Below are positions 58,666 through 64,000 of a stretch of DNA of 64,000 nucleotides, in pieces. Position numbers and translations under genes: made by a program. The DNA is taken from positions 35,433 through 99,432 of the forward strand of contig NTKO01000002.1 in NCBI GenBank assembly GCA_002457735.1, in the 5' to 3' direction. This DNA comes from Bacteroidetes bacterium MED-G13 (lineage in GTDB: Bacteria > Bacteroidota > Bacteroidia > Flavobacteriales > Flavobacteriaceae). The stretch's first letter is position 1; every line of letters begins with the position of its first letter. The notes under the pieces were generated by a model, which was not told the DNA's origin, searched no databases, and saw only the letters and a program-made list of their open reading frames with translations.

Positions 58666-58726
58666 TTAGGATACTTTGGTATTATTTGTGATAAGTTATG
58701 AAGAATTTATTCTTAGTTTTGCAGCT

Positions 58727-59827
58727 ATGAAAAATCTCATTTTTTTCACTATATTTTTTTTAATATTTGGCTGTAAATCCATAAAAACTCCAATTGATTT
58801 TGCAATTAAATCCCCCAAACCCTCAATTTCTATTGTTAAAAAGAATTTAAAAAATCATAAAATTCAAATTAAACTAACAGCTATTGATGAAGAGGAAAAT
58901 ATTAATTATGACTTTAATGTTGACAACGAAAATTACTTTTATCCTGCAAGCACTGTAAAACTTCCCATTGCGCTTCTTGCAATAGAAAAAGTAAATGAAT
59001 CTAAATACATAACATTAGATACTCCATTTAGGATAGAAGACGAAGATGAAAAATCTAGCCTGCGTGATGAAATCCTAAAAATGTTTGTTGTTAGTGATAA
59101 CGAATCCTTTAATAGAATATTTGAATTCCTTGGTCAAGACTACATTAATGGTACGCTAAAATCTTTAGGATTTGAAAACACAAAAATATTTCACAGGTTA
59201 TCTACCAATAATTCCGAAAATTTAAATACAAAAAAGGTTTTCTTTTACCTTGAAAAAGACAGTATTTCTTACCAGAGTCTAAACAGAGAAATTACTCCAA
59301 ATCAATTGAATGGTTTAAAAAAAGGAAAAAAGTTTTATAATGATATGAATGAATTGGTAAAAAAACCGATGGATTTCTCTAAAAAAAATAGACTATCCAT
59401 TGATGATTTACATGAAATGACCACTCAAGTTTTTTTTCCTGAAAATTATATCAACAAAAATTCTTTTCAGCTAAATAACAAACAGAGAGAATTCATTTGG
59501 GAGGCTATGTCTGCATCACCCAGCAAACTTGGATTAAACAGAGAGAACTATCCTGATAACTTTGTTAAGTTTTTTGTTAGAGGTGATGAAAAAAAGAAAG
59601 ATACTATAATTAATTATCCAAAAATATACAATAAAGTGGGTACCGCATATGGTCAGTTGACTGAAACTGCATTTATTGAGTCTGATAATAATCAATTTAT
59701 TCTTACCGCTACTATTTACGTAAATGAAAATGATATTATCAATGATGATATATATGAGTATGAATCTGTTGGTATACCGTTTTTTGCCTCACTGGGCAAA
59801 GAAATCCTATCTCTTCTAAAAAATTAG
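58727..59827 (+). CDS. Class A beta-lactamase-like serine hydrolase, lipoprotein
   Basis: The 366-residue protein starts at ATG 58727 with a lipoprotein signal (MKNLIFFTIFFLIFGCKS); upstream in-frame codons would only lengthen the front. The fold is serine beta-lactamase / penicillin-binding: the active-site STVK in FYPASTVKLPIALLAIEKV (SxxK), the SDN motif in FVVSDNESFNRIF, and a KVG triad position in YNKVGTAYGQLTE (usually KTG). It could act on peptidoglycan or on esters; resistance to beta-lactams cannot be claimed from these motifs. Anchoring at the inner face of the outer membrane is likely. Confidence 0.85.
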   Translation: MKNLIFFTIFFLIFGCKSIKTPIDFAIKSPKPSISIVKKNLKNHKIQIKLTAIDEEENINYDFNVDNENYFYPASTVKLPIALLAIEKVNESKYITLDTPFRIEDEDEKSSLRDEILKMFVVSDNESFNRIFEFLGQDYINGTLKSLGFENTKIFHRLSTNNSENLNTKKVFFYLEKDSISYQSLNREITPNQLNGLKKGKKFYNDMNELVKKPMDFSKKNRLSIDDLHEMTTQVFFPENYINKNSFQLNNKQREFIWEAMSASPSKLGLNRENYPDNFVKFFVRGDEKKKDTIINYPKIYNKVGTAYGQLTETAFIESDNNQFILTATIYVNENDIINDDIYEYESVGIPFFASLGKEILSLLKN

Positions 59828-59918: not shown

Positions 59919-62900
59919 ATGTATGCTCGGCTAAGCTTTTACTTATATTTCTTTGTAATTAATTTTACATATTCACAAGAAAATGTCTCTCCCTTAATTA
60001 CTTCACAAGGAAATGAAATTTATTGTCCTCAAACGGAGCAAAATATAGTAAACTTATTTAACATTCAAGATCCCGATGATATAGAGTTAGATGCCTTATA
60101 TGTACAAATTTCTCAGGGTTATATTCCTGGAGAGGATGTATTAATTTTAAATGGAGATCATCCTGGAATTTCAACTTCTTGGAGCGTTAGTGAAGGGAAA
60201 CTTGAAATTGCAGGAAACGGTGGCCCTGCTTTAATAGCAGATATTATAGCTGCTGTTTATGATATTGTATTCTTCTCTTCGAATCCAAACCCTGTTGATA
60301 AATATTTCTCATTTACGATTGGAAATGTGAATTATCTTCCATCAACAGGTCATTATTACATATATTATGAATCTGTTGGGATAACATGGACTCAGGCAAA
60401 AAGTGCCGCTGAAAATTCAACATATTATGGTCTTCAAGGATATTTAGCAACAATTTTATCAGCAGAGGAAAATCAAATTGCAGCAGAACAAATTGGTGGA
60501 GCTGGATGGATTGGAGCTAGTGACCAAGATATTGAGGGAGAATGGAATTGGGTAACAGGGCCCGAAGCTGGAACTAATTTTTGGAACGGAAATTTTACAG
60601 GAAGTGCAGTAGATGGTATGTATACTAATTGGAATGAATTCGAACCAAACCAAGCAGGAGATGAGGATTACGCACATATTACTGATGATTCTATAGGTAT
60701 AATTGGTTCTTGGAACGATTTATCAAATGATGGATCATTTGAAGGTCCTTATCAACCCAAAGGTTATATTGTTGAATATGGTGGTATGCCAGGAGATCCA
60801 GTATTAAATCTTTCATCAAGTACTAATTTACTTTCAGTACCAACGATTGACACTACCCCATTTGACGGATATGATTGTGTTGAAGTTGAACTAATTGCAA
60901 TCTCTGATTATGAAGATGGAAATGTGTATTGGTATGATTTACCAGAGGGTGGTGAACCGATTTTCTACGGAACTAATTTTTATCCTGAAATTTCTGAAAG
61001 TACCTCATATTGGGTTTCTAATTTTAATGTTGGGGAATGTGATAATTATCCACGAATAGAAATCGTTGCGAATATAACCCCTATTTTATCAGAAGTAGTT
61101 ACTCCAAATGTATATGTAAATGAGGAATGCTTTACTGTCGAAGAACTTGTAACTAATGTTCTTATAAATAATCCTTGTGCAAATGTTTCAAACATTACAT
61201 TTACGAGTGGAAATGACTTTAACGATGTAAATGGTATTGGTCACTTTATTGAGCCAAGTGAATCCTTCCCTTTTAGTGAAGGTATAGTTTTATCTACTGG
61301 AAATACATTGTTAGCATCAGGTCCTAACACTGGACTAGGGGATGCTAGTACCGGAGATAATCAGTGGCCTGGAGATAATGATTTAAGTGCATTAATTGGG
61401 GAAGAGACATTTAATGCTTCAACCATTGAATTTGATTTTGTACCTATTTCAAATAACTTGAGTTTCCGATTTATTATGGCATCTGAAGAATATGACCAGG
61501 GATTATATGAATGTGAATATTCTGATGTATTTGCGTTTTTACTAACAGATTCTGAAGGAAATACAACCAATCTTGCGGTAATCCCTGATACTGATATCCC
61601 AATTGCAATTACAAATATTCACCCTGCAAATGATGTATGTGATGCAGTAAATGAGGAGTATTTTCATGGATATACCCCTGTAAATCAACCTGACATTGGT
61701 TATGATGGTAGAACCATTGCGTTTGTTGCTCAAGCCGATGTAACCATTGGTGAAACTTATCACATTAAACTCTCTGTTGCGGATGCATCTGATACACAAT
61801 TAGATTCCGCTGTATTTCTTGAGGCTGGAAGTTTTGATCTCGGATTATATTTGGGTGATGATATTTTAGTTAGCACAGGGGAATCAGCATGCCAAGGAGA
61901 TCCAATAATACTTGACACTCAAATTGATGAAGATAATGAAAACATATCATTTGTGTGGACATATGAAGGTGCAGTGATTAGCGATGAAAATTCACCATCC
62001 CTTTCAATTTTTGAATCAGGAACTTATGAAGTTATTGTAACGCTTTCTGAAGAATGTATTTTATCTGATGAGATTTATGTGGAATTCTATGTTCCAATAG
62101 AATTAGATCCGCTGAATAATCTTGAGTCTTGTGATAATTTTGATTTTGATGGAATGGGAATTTTTGATTTAACGGAGCAGACGCAAAATATCCTTGAACA
62201 GATTAACTCTGAAAATTATTTTATTAATTATTTTGAGAGTGAGGAAAATGCAATTAATAATATTGATCCTATTGAATCACTAGACTTTTATGAAAATATT
62301 ACTGCATTTAACCAACCAATATTTGTTAGCCTATTCGAACCTGAATACCCTGATTGTGCTAGTATAGAAAGTTTCAATTTGATAACTATTGATCCTCCAT
62401 CACTTATTGTTCCTACTCCACTTGAGGAGTGTGATGATGATTACGACGGTATTGTCTCTTTCTTTGATCTATCTCAAAAAACAGAGGAAATTCTAAATGG
62501 ACAAACCGGAATATCTGTCTCCTATTACGAGACTCTAGAAAATGCAGAAAGTGGTGAAAATCCTATTGAAGGTCTATACACTAATATTGAAGTGGATACG
62601 CAAACTCTATATGTAAGGCTTGTTGATGATCTAAATAATTGTATTTCTTCAACTTCATTAGATTTAATTGTTAATCCTTTACCAGAAATTATAACTCCTA
62701 CTCCACTTGAGGAATGTGACGATGATTACGATGGTATTGTTTCCTTCTTTGATCTATCTCAAAAAACCGAGGAAATACTAAATGGACAAACCGGAATATC
62801 TGTCTCCTATTATGAGACTCTAGAAAATGCAGAAAGTAGTGAAAATCCTATTGAAGATCTATACACTAATATTGAAGTAGATACGCAAACACTATATGTA

Positions 62901-64000
62901 AGACTAGAAGTAGATGAAACTGGATGTTATGCAACCACTACACAAGAACTAATTGTTCATCCACTGGCTGTAATTGAAGTTACGGATTATGAATTATGCG
63001 ATTATACGAATCCTGGAGATTTAATAGAAGTATTTGATATTACAACTAAATCTGATGAAATTATCAATGAACAAGACGTAGTACTAACTTACTTCACTTC
63101 ATTATTAGATTCTCAAAATAATACAAATCCAATAAGTAATGAAGAATTAGTTGCCTATTCTAATACGGAACCAACAGAAACAATATATGTTACCTTAGAA
63201 CAAAATGCTACGGGATGTATCACTTATGGATCCTTTGATATTATTGTCAATCCACTACCTAATGTTATTGAAAATACTGATTTGGTACAATGTGATATTG
63301 ATGATGTACAAGACGGAATATCTATTTATAATTTGGAAGAAGCTGCAGAGAATATTGTTATAGGAGATGATCCTAATAACTATGTACTTACCTTCCATTT
63401 ATCTCAAGAAGACTTAGATGCTGGAATTAATGCCATTGAAGAGCCAACAGCATATGTAAATGAAACACCACTGCAAAATATATACTGCAGAGTAGAAAAT
63501 ATAAATACCGGATGTTATACAACTTCATACTTCTATTTAGAAACAGTATTTAACCCAATCCCAGGTGATGCTGGATTAATAGTTTGTGATGATAGTGAAA
63601 TGAATGGAACAGATGCTGATTACAATGGCCTTGGACTCTTTACATTAAGCGATGCAGATGAATATGTATTATCACTAATTGTAGCAAATCCAAATAATGA
63701 TATAACAGATGCGAGTCAGTTAAATGTAAGTTATTATTTCGATGAAAATGATGCACTCTTAGAGCTCAATCAATTACCAAATGAATATATCAGTGAAGTG
63801 CCAAATCAACAAGTCATTTATCTAAGAGTGGAAAGAGGTAATGACTGCTTTGGAATAAATAGTATGACTCTTGAAGTATTACCAGTACCGCAAATTATAA
63901 CTCCTACTCCACTTAAAGAGTGTGATGATGATTATGATGGTATTGTCTCTTTCTTTGATCTATCTCAAAAAACAGAGGAAATTCTAAATGGACAAACCGG
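59919..64000 (+). CDS. Giant secreted adhesin-like protein: C-type lectin, choice-of-anchor L and repeated Cys/Asp modules (C-terminus beyond window)
   Basis: The frame runs from ATG 59919 to the right edge (1360 full codons) without a stop. A signal peptide (MYARLSFYLYFFVINFTYSQ) comes first, then a cadherin/Ig-like region (about 25-140). Residues 144-289 are a C-type lectin fold (GHYYIYYESVGITW, LATILSAEENQ, GWIGASDQDIEGEWNW, TNWNEFEPNQ, SWNDLS). An Ig-like stretch (about 290-390) and a choice-of-anchor L domain (about 400-640: GIVLSTGNTLLASGPN, STIEFDFVP, FRFIMASEEYDQ, VFAFLLTDSEGN) follow, then another Ig-like part. Seven or more modules of about 95-110 residues begin near residues 737, 838, 933, 1027, 1125, 1223 and 1335, each starting CDxDxDG-like and reaching a FDL core. 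The layout is that of flavobacterial type-IX-secreted gliding or adhesion proteins; the sorting domain would lie outside the window. Confidence 0.9.
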   Translation, partial: MYARLSFYLYFFVINFTYSQENVSPLITSQGNEIYCPQTEQNIVNLFNIQDPDDIELDALYVQISQGYIPGEDVLILNGDHPGISTSWSVSEGKLEIAGNGGPALIADIIAAVYDIVFFSSNPNPVDKYFSFTIGNVNYLPSTGHYYIYYESVGITWTQAKSAAENSTYYGLQGYLATILSAEENQIAAEQIGGAGWIGASDQDIEGEWNWVTGPEAGTNFWNGNFTGSAVDGMYTNWNEFEPNQAGDEDYAHITDDSIGIIGSWNDLSNDGSFEGPYQPKGYIVEYGGMPGDPVLNLSSSTNLLSVPTIDTTPFDGYDCVEVELIAISDYEDGNVYWYDLPEGGEPIFYGTNFYPEISESTSYWVSNFNVGECDNYPRIEIVANITPILSEVVTPNVYVNEECFTVEELVTNVLINNPCANVSNITFTSGNDFNDVNGIGHFIEPSESFPFSEGIVLSTGNTLLASGPNTGLGDASTGDNQWPGDNDLSALIGEETFNASTIEFDFVPISNNLSFRFIMASEEYDQGLYECEYSDVFAFLLTDSEGNTTNLAVIPDTDIPIAITNIHPANDVCDAVNEEYFHGYTPVNQPDIGYDGRTIAFVAQADVTIGETYHIKLSVADASDTQLDSAVFLEAGSFDLGLYLGDDILVSTGESACQGDPIILDTQIDEDNENISFVWTYEGAVISDENSPSLSIFESGTYEVIVTLSEECILSDEIYVEFYVPIELDPLNNLESCDNFDFDGMGIFDLTEQTQNILEQINSENYFINYFESEENAINNIDPIESLDFYENITAFNQPIFVSLFEPEYPDCASIESFNLITIDPPSLIVPTPLEECDDDYDGIVSFFDLSQKTEEILNGQTGISVSYYETLENAESGENPIEGLYTNIEVDTQTLYVRLVDDLNNCISSTSLDLIVNPLPEIITPTPLEECDDDYDGIVSFFDLSQKTEEILNGQTGISVSYYETLENAESSENPIEDLYTNIEVDTQTLYVRLEVDETGCYATTTQELIVHPLAVIEVTDYELCDYTNPGDLIEVFDITTKSDEIINEQDVVLTYFTSLLDSQNNTNPISNEELVAYSNTEPTETIYVTLEQNATGCITYGSFDIIVNPLPNVIENTDLVQCDIDDVQDGISIYNLEEAAENIVIGDDPNNYVLTFHLSQEDLDAGINAIEEPTAYVNETPLQNIYCRVENINTGCYTTSYFYLETVFNPIPGDAGLIVCDDSEMNGTDADYNGLGLFTLSDADEYVLSLIVANPNNDITDASQLNVSYYFDENDALLELNQLPNEYISEVPNQQVIYLRVERGNDCFGINSMTLEVLPVPQIITPTPLKECDDDYDGIVSFFDLSQKTEEILNGQT
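62411..62618 (+). repeat. Intragenic repeat copy A (208 bp)
   Basis: This copy codes for the module starting ECDDDYDGIVSFFDL. It is aligned without gaps to copy B (62696-62903), with about 12 differences in 208 bases by my count. Copy C at the right edge is even closer to A than B is. Confidence 0.9.
62696..62903 (+). repeat. Intragenic repeat copy B (208 bp)
   Basis: It lies 285 bp (95 codons) downstream of copy A and in the same frame. Most differences from A are silent (e.g. third-base changes), which suggests recent duplication with selection on the protein. Spacing equals one protein module. Confidence 0.9.
63902..64000 (+). repeat. Intragenic repeat copy C, cut by the window edge
   Basis: The first 99 bases match copy A at all but about four positions, although A lies 1491 bp away and B, with more differences, is between them. 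This pattern fits gene conversion or unequal crossing-over within the gene. Confidence 0.85.

Follow-up and report, generated by a model that had tools for sequence, protein, structure and literature searches.

A C-type lectin adhesin of an uncultured marine flavobacterium and the stalk that it appears to share with a second adhesin

Results

The stretch of DNA analyzed here (the window) comprises 64,000 nucleotides from Bacteroidetes bacterium MED-G13 (GCA_002457735.1) and corresponds to bases 35433-99432 of contig NTKO01000002.1, hereafter C12, which has a total length of 99,432 bp. The 5' part of a giant adhesin gene is found at its end (59919..64000, forward strand), where an open reading frame (ORF, 59919-63998(+)) encodes 1360 amino acids (aa) with no stop codon before the window end. 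Since the window end is also the end of C12, the truncation of the gene comes from the contig and not from the choice of window; the initial annotation placed the C-terminus beyond the window, and it lies beyond C12 as well. The best reading is that the ORF encodes the front part of a very large surface-anchored repeat adhesin of an uncultured marine flavobacterium. From sequence comparison, the stalk, nearly unchanged in sequence, and the sorting domain of this adhesin appear to be shared with a second adhesin, which carries a CUB/PKD head instead of the lectin head.

The protein begins with a signal-peptide-like N-terminus (MYARLSFYLYFFVINFTYSQ, 59919..59978), typical in appearance when read by eye, and all features follow on the forward strand. 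The N-terminal domain (N-domain; aa 24-139, 59988..60335), recognized by alignment A1, a structural model and the local profile NDOM, is a beta-rich domain of ~115 aa that is conserved beside the lectin across Flavobacteriaceae. It is followed by a cysteine-free C-type lectin domain (CTLD; aa 140-290, 60336..60788), an Ig_7 domain (aa 331-388, 60909..61082; PF19081, E 1.2e-12) and a choice-of-anchor L domain (aa 411-639, 61149..61835), the last matching NF038133 with 165 bits against a curated cut-off of 27 bits (E 1.7e-48). Behind these domains stand six complete and one truncated two-cysteine modules. The initial annotation described a giant surface protein combining a lectin, choice-of-anchor L and Cys/Asp repeats, an observation that is confirmed by profiles, structure match and module count, although the ~115-aa domain ahead of the lectin and the Ig_7 domain after it had gone unnoticed.

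The CTLD assignment is borne out by both profile search and structure match. Pfam Lectin_C gives 22.2 bits on the whole protein, just below the cut-off of 22.6, and 28.4 bits (E 2.8e-6) on the isolated domain, which is above it. A profile built from 23 homologues of the domain retrieves animal C-type lectins from the PDB (best E 1.2e-7), and the AlphaFold model (predicted local distance difference test, pLDDT, 84) has a CTLD fold for which Foldseek returns CD23, aggrecan and mannose-binding protein (E from 1.5e-6, template modelling score, TM, by target 0.69-0.86). The predicted Ca2+ site 2 (60642..60719) consists of E242-P-N244, E249 and W265-N266-D267; alignment A1 shows E249, N266 and D267 to be invariant and E242 and N244 nearly so, and the EPN and WND motifs align with those of CD23. 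In animal lectins, EPN goes with ligands of the mannose, fucose or glucose type, and QPD with those of the galactose type. The head would thus be a Ca2+-dependent lectin with a mannose-type (EPN) calcium site, its ligand type being suggested by the animal lectins. None of the results favours the algal polysaccharides that the initial annotation offered as an example of a ligand.

The stalk modules have cysteines at aa 738, 838, 933, 1027, 1125, 1223 and 1335. Module 1 lies at 62118..62399, module 2, with a strict CDxDxDG motif, at 62418..62684, and module 3 at 62703..62966, its first ~210 bp being a copy of module 2 (93% DNA identity). Modules 4, 5 and 6 occupy 62985..63260, 63279..63563 and 63573..63890, and module 7 (63909..64000), a third copy of the module-2 start, is truncated by the contig end. 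The last 62 bp of C12 recur exactly at 62448-62509; as the contig ends in this third copy, its end is explained as an assembly break. Each module spans ~95 aa, with mixed strands and two helices in the predicted structure (pLDDT 95.8 for the pair of modules 2 and 3). No Pfam family scored above cut-off for the modules, the Pfam search of the window protein gave no SprB repeat, and PADLOC gave no defence match. A module profile found 220 near-complete copies in 67 ORFs.

The gene is present in 16 of 21 genomes of the same genus. The full order of N-domain, CTLD, Ig_7, choice-of-anchor L and modules recurs at 17 loci besides the window (L066-L081 and L085), nearly all of them uncultured or metagenome records; these uncultured marine Flavobacteriaceae have an identical domain order from the N-domain on. 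Cultured Flavobacteriaceae commonly have a shorter form without choice-of-anchor L, in which N-domain, CTLD and Ig_7 are followed by modules and a sorting domain, and a frequent arrangement in Flavobacterium is N-domain, CTLD, two Ig_7 domains and a type B sorting domain. Such proteins (e.g., L035-L053 and L082-L145) contain the same three domains (~45-57% identity); a type B domain forms the C-terminus of most, and 2-3 of the same modules are found in many. They are, however, mostly 690-1130 aa long with few modules and no choice-of-anchor L, whereas the window type has this domain and, where complete, 17 modules. The suggestion of an undescribed adhesin architecture therefore stands only in part: the open-access literature searched gave no text naming choice-of-anchor L and none joining type B sorting domain, lectin and Flavobacteri-, but the same order occurs in the 17 relatives and the shorter form is common. 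Here a widespread Flavobacteriaceae family has been enlarged within a single lineage.

Some relatives vary in the head. In L066, L067 and L076, a DUF285 (PARCEL) and Ig_7 region is added at the N-terminus, whereas the window gene begins with the lectin part itself. The DUF285/PARCEL repeats at L067:7028-8600 and from L066:2846 onward cap the same adhesin in these close relatives. PARCEL repeats have been described as a family that spread horizontally among diverse microbes (PMC2996958). A block of 1.56-1.58 kb in the N-terminal head is duplicated in tandem at L066:4382-7603 and L076:331-3533 (98.9% and 99.7% identity), and more distant families of the order (L057, L058, L060) have proteins of 2.4-2.9 k aa with two or three related CTLD copies. 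Directly upstream of the window gene lies a gene for a Beta-lactamase2-like serine hydrolase (window 58676-59827), and a similar-looking ORF is found at the same position in L066, L067 and L081.

The C-terminal end can be read from two complete relatives. L067, from the single-cell genome AG-337-I03 (G299), encodes 3613 aa and matches the window at 91% identity across head and choice-of-anchor L, and L081, from MED649 (G302), encodes 2686 aa. Each contains 17 modules and a C-terminal type B sorting domain of the type IX secretion system (T9SS), identified in L067 by TIGR04131 (112.6 bits) and in L081 by a local profile and CHU_C. The T9SS sorting domain anticipated by the initial annotation is thus found in these relatives, while the corresponding part of the window gene lies off the contig. 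In the genome of the window gene, a 98-aa type B domain stands at the start of contig C16. It has 95.7% DNA identity to that of L067, the closer of the two complete relatives, and is probably the C-terminus of either the window gene or its paralog on contig C30. C30 itself was rejected as a continuation of the window gene, being a paralog with another head, and so were the C24 homologues, which belong to a different choice-of-anchor L/type B protein (L008).

The genome encodes SprA and three PorP/SprF proteins, i.e., a T9SS is present. Two of the three PorP/SprF genes adjoin type B substrates, and no such substrate was found within ~5 kb on either side (~10 kb read) of the third (L211). At another site (G000:C27:20300-28500, L065), a 1897-aa type B protein is encoded beside a PorP/SprF gene, with gldM- and gldN-like genes close by as read by eye. 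By analogy with its relatives, the window gene is best read as a T9SS type B substrate.

The paralog on C30 is another giant ORF, with a CUB and PKD head; its modules resemble those in the stalk of L067. Except for a short Ig-like stretch, the CTLD and CUB/PKD heads are unrelated. Modules 10-11 of C30 show 91% identity to the CTLD gene of L067, compared with 76% to their own orthologue, the CUB gene of genome G301 (L176). Similarly, the stalk of the G301 CUB gene is 92% identical to the G302 CTLD stalk, whereas the CTLD stalks of G299 and G302 share 68%. Between the L081 CTLD gene and the L176 CUB gene, identity is 40-57% in modules 8-9 and then rises abruptly to 83-98% up to the C-terminus. 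Across genomes, the compared sequences of the stalk follow lineage and not gene. Gene conversion is the likely cause of this sharing, as we infer, with recent duplication and head replacement as a less likely alternative. Two apparent gene copies in MED649 (C10 and C22) were not counted as paralogs, since they look like a single gene covered by two overlapping contigs (99.2% over 4.9 kb, up to both contig ends).

The stalk is also where assemblies break. Of the 11 loci with this architecture that sit on longer contigs, 9 have a contig end inside the stalk, and none has one on the head side within 8 kb (p 2e-4). In genome G298, a 3041-bp contig consists only of stalk and part of the sorting domain, and the sequences of the two heads and of the two downstream genes (alanine dehydrogenase and FadL-like) all stop at contig ends, a pattern expected if the stalks of two genes had been collapsed into one. 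Downstream of the shared sorting domain, alanine dehydrogenase follows the CTLD gene in L067 (L067:17876) and MED649 but the CUB gene in G301 (L176:2261), and a FadL-like gene stands after the sorting domain on C16 (L064:2282-3835). These differing flanks reflect either a misjoin in one assembly or flank exchange by recombination between stalks, of the sort reported for F. psychrophilum adhesin repeats (PMC5808330).

Stalk sharing is seen outside the genus as well. In Polaribacter filamentus (L124:3248-14104), two giant genes in tandem, one with an IgGFc-binding head and one with a CTLD head, share 2340 bp at 99.4% within a 3.19 Mb contig. The shared part covers stalk and sorting domain, the heads are unrelated, and the few mismatches all fall in the final ~455 bp ahead of the stop. 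As this is an independent case, stalk sharing is not only an artefact. Stalk identity is nevertheless not universal, since the tandem type B gene at L092 shares just 44% with its CTLD neighbour. A mirror pattern occurs in the tandem type B pairs at L180:3572-10220, L181:4816-11467 and L179:4698-11302, in which the N-terminal ~450 aa are nearly the same and the bodies differ (modules or choice-of-anchor L).

Discussion

Our reading of the locus, to which we give a probability of about 0.8, is that the window gene encodes a T9SS type B adhesin with a C-type lectin head on a modular stalk, and that its stalk and sorting domain have been homogenized with those of the CUB/PKD adhesin. Judging from the relatives, the full protein would have about 2600-2700 aa. 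It would be exported by the Sec pathway via its signal peptide, pass through SprA and be anchored by a PorP/SprF shuttle that recognizes the type B C-terminal domain, as relatives and published work suggest. About 17 compact modules, each probably closed by one disulfide, might hold the head tens of nanometres from the cell, where the mannose-type, Ca2+-dependent lectin could bind sugars on particles, algae or other cells. Homogenization of stalk and sorting domain would then deliver two unrelated heads on one standard stalk with one address.

Some points weigh against this reading. The type B assignment rests on the relatives, as the gene's own C-terminus is off the contig. No PorP/SprF gene adjoins the CTLD gene; alanine dehydrogenase stands there in L067, and a FadL-like gene on C16 of the window's own genome. 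Finally, the assemblies of the genus are fragmentary drafts or single-cell genomes, and together with the differing position of alanine dehydrogenase (L067 versus L176) this means that some joins are perhaps wrong.

Type B domains direct cargo to SprF-like shuttles, and three orphan type B substrates use one orphan shuttle, the fate of the cargo being gliding or static anchoring (PMC12618676; PMC9143113). In the contexts read, neither adhesin gene lies beside a shuttle gene; by analogy, both adhesins should use one PorP/SprF shuttle and reach one location, as the shared sorting domain predicts. More tentatively, and with somewhat less than even confidence, we propose that Flavobacteriaceae keep sets of giant adhesins with unrelated heads, in which recombination maintains the identity of stalk and T9SS sorting domain. 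A single shuttle and location would then serve interchangeable heads, and recombination in the stalk would also swap the chromosomal flanks.

The alternative that survives best is a gliding adhesin, which the type B domain would hand to the gliding machinery to be driven along the cell like SprB. Cargo is targeted to this machinery by the type B domains of SprB and Fjoh_4750, and partly by that of Fjoh_1123, and the CTLD gene resembles the orphan substrates that share an orphan shuttle in not lying beside a shuttle gene (PMC12618676). The Fjoh_3952 type B domain, however, leads to static anchoring (PMC12618676), and we regard gliding as a serious possibility, though less likely than not.

The initial annotation further proposed that seven modules with CDxDxDG motifs bind calcium and stiffen the stalk. 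There are seven modules, including the truncated one, but only 3/7 have the strict motif, as do 35/220 (16%) overall. An acidic loop does follow the first cysteine (loose C[DE]...[DN]G in 193/220 modules), and the modules bear a weak structural likeness to calcium-bound cadherin repeats. On the other hand, strict DxDxDG is found in just 41/220 with variable loop length, and superpositions of the module pair on cadherins are poor (TM by query 0.20-0.29, root-mean-square deviation, rmsd, above 9). A better, partial match is a fragment of the Aureispira grappling hook protein (9flu_A; TM 0.42, rmsd 6.0), and no sequence match was found between the modules and the stalk repeat of Aureispira GhpA. 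With two cysteines in 208/220 modules, the cysteine pair is, in the aligned sequences, the conserved feature of the module and CDxDxDG is not. Calcium-binding spacers that rigidify the stalk are accordingly unlikely, and calcium binding as such is possible but not implied. Calcium-bound TSP3/EF-like repeats were rejected, as the motif is not conserved and no Pfam family scored above cut-off.

It is less likely still that the CTLD binds proteins or has a structural role instead of binding glycans. Numerous animal CTLDs do bind proteins or ice, and the canonical disulfides of animal CTLDs are missing here, with no cysteine in the window domain or in 95/111 relatives. These disulfides are not required for the CTLD fold, and the calcium-site-2 motifs are retained across 111 domains (EPN in 110, QPD in 1, WND in 111/111), as expected for sugar selection.

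Least probable, and in our view only a slim chance, is an assembly artefact in the window's genus, in which draft and single-cell assemblies attached one adhesin stalk to two heads by mistake. The contigs of the heads and of both 3' flanks often end close to the stalk, one stalk sequence only is recovered per genome and alanine dehydrogenase follows both genes, but its presence and that of the FadL-like gene beside type B C-termini in different genomes implies two genes, C30 spans modules 8-11 in a single contig and P. filamentus shows the same pattern within one contig.

Marine flavobacteria attach to algae and particles, yet most adhesins of uncultured streamlined lineages have gone unread because assemblies break at their genes. 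Our results show what breaks them in this case, i.e., near-identical modules within and between adhesin genes, and provide two complete examples. They also suggest that a head can evolve on its own while stalk and sorting address stay standard.

Among known systems, SprB of Flavobacterium johnsoniae is a giant type B T9SS adhesin (PMC12618676), as the window gene product would be, but it has the adjacent shuttle gene sprF, which has no counterpart beside the CTLD gene, and its repeat is not found in the window protein. RemA of F. johnsoniae is a T9SS adhesin with a lectin domain (PMC12618676), as the window gene product would be; the C-terminal domain of RemA is type A, whereas the relatives of the window gene have type B. 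In F. psychrophilum, inverted 10 kb repeats containing an adhesin and a PorP/SprF gene flank a 1.9 Mb chromosomal inversion (PMC5808330), although these repeats contain whole genes rather than a stalk alone beneath different heads. In Porphyromonas gingivalis, RgpA, Kgp and HagA are different T9SS proteins with identical adhesin repeats that automated assembly could not resolve (PMC5266723). This parallels the shared stalk described here, with the difference that RgpA and Kgp have protease heads, that the adhesin domains are cleaved and that the repeat family is not that of the window modules.

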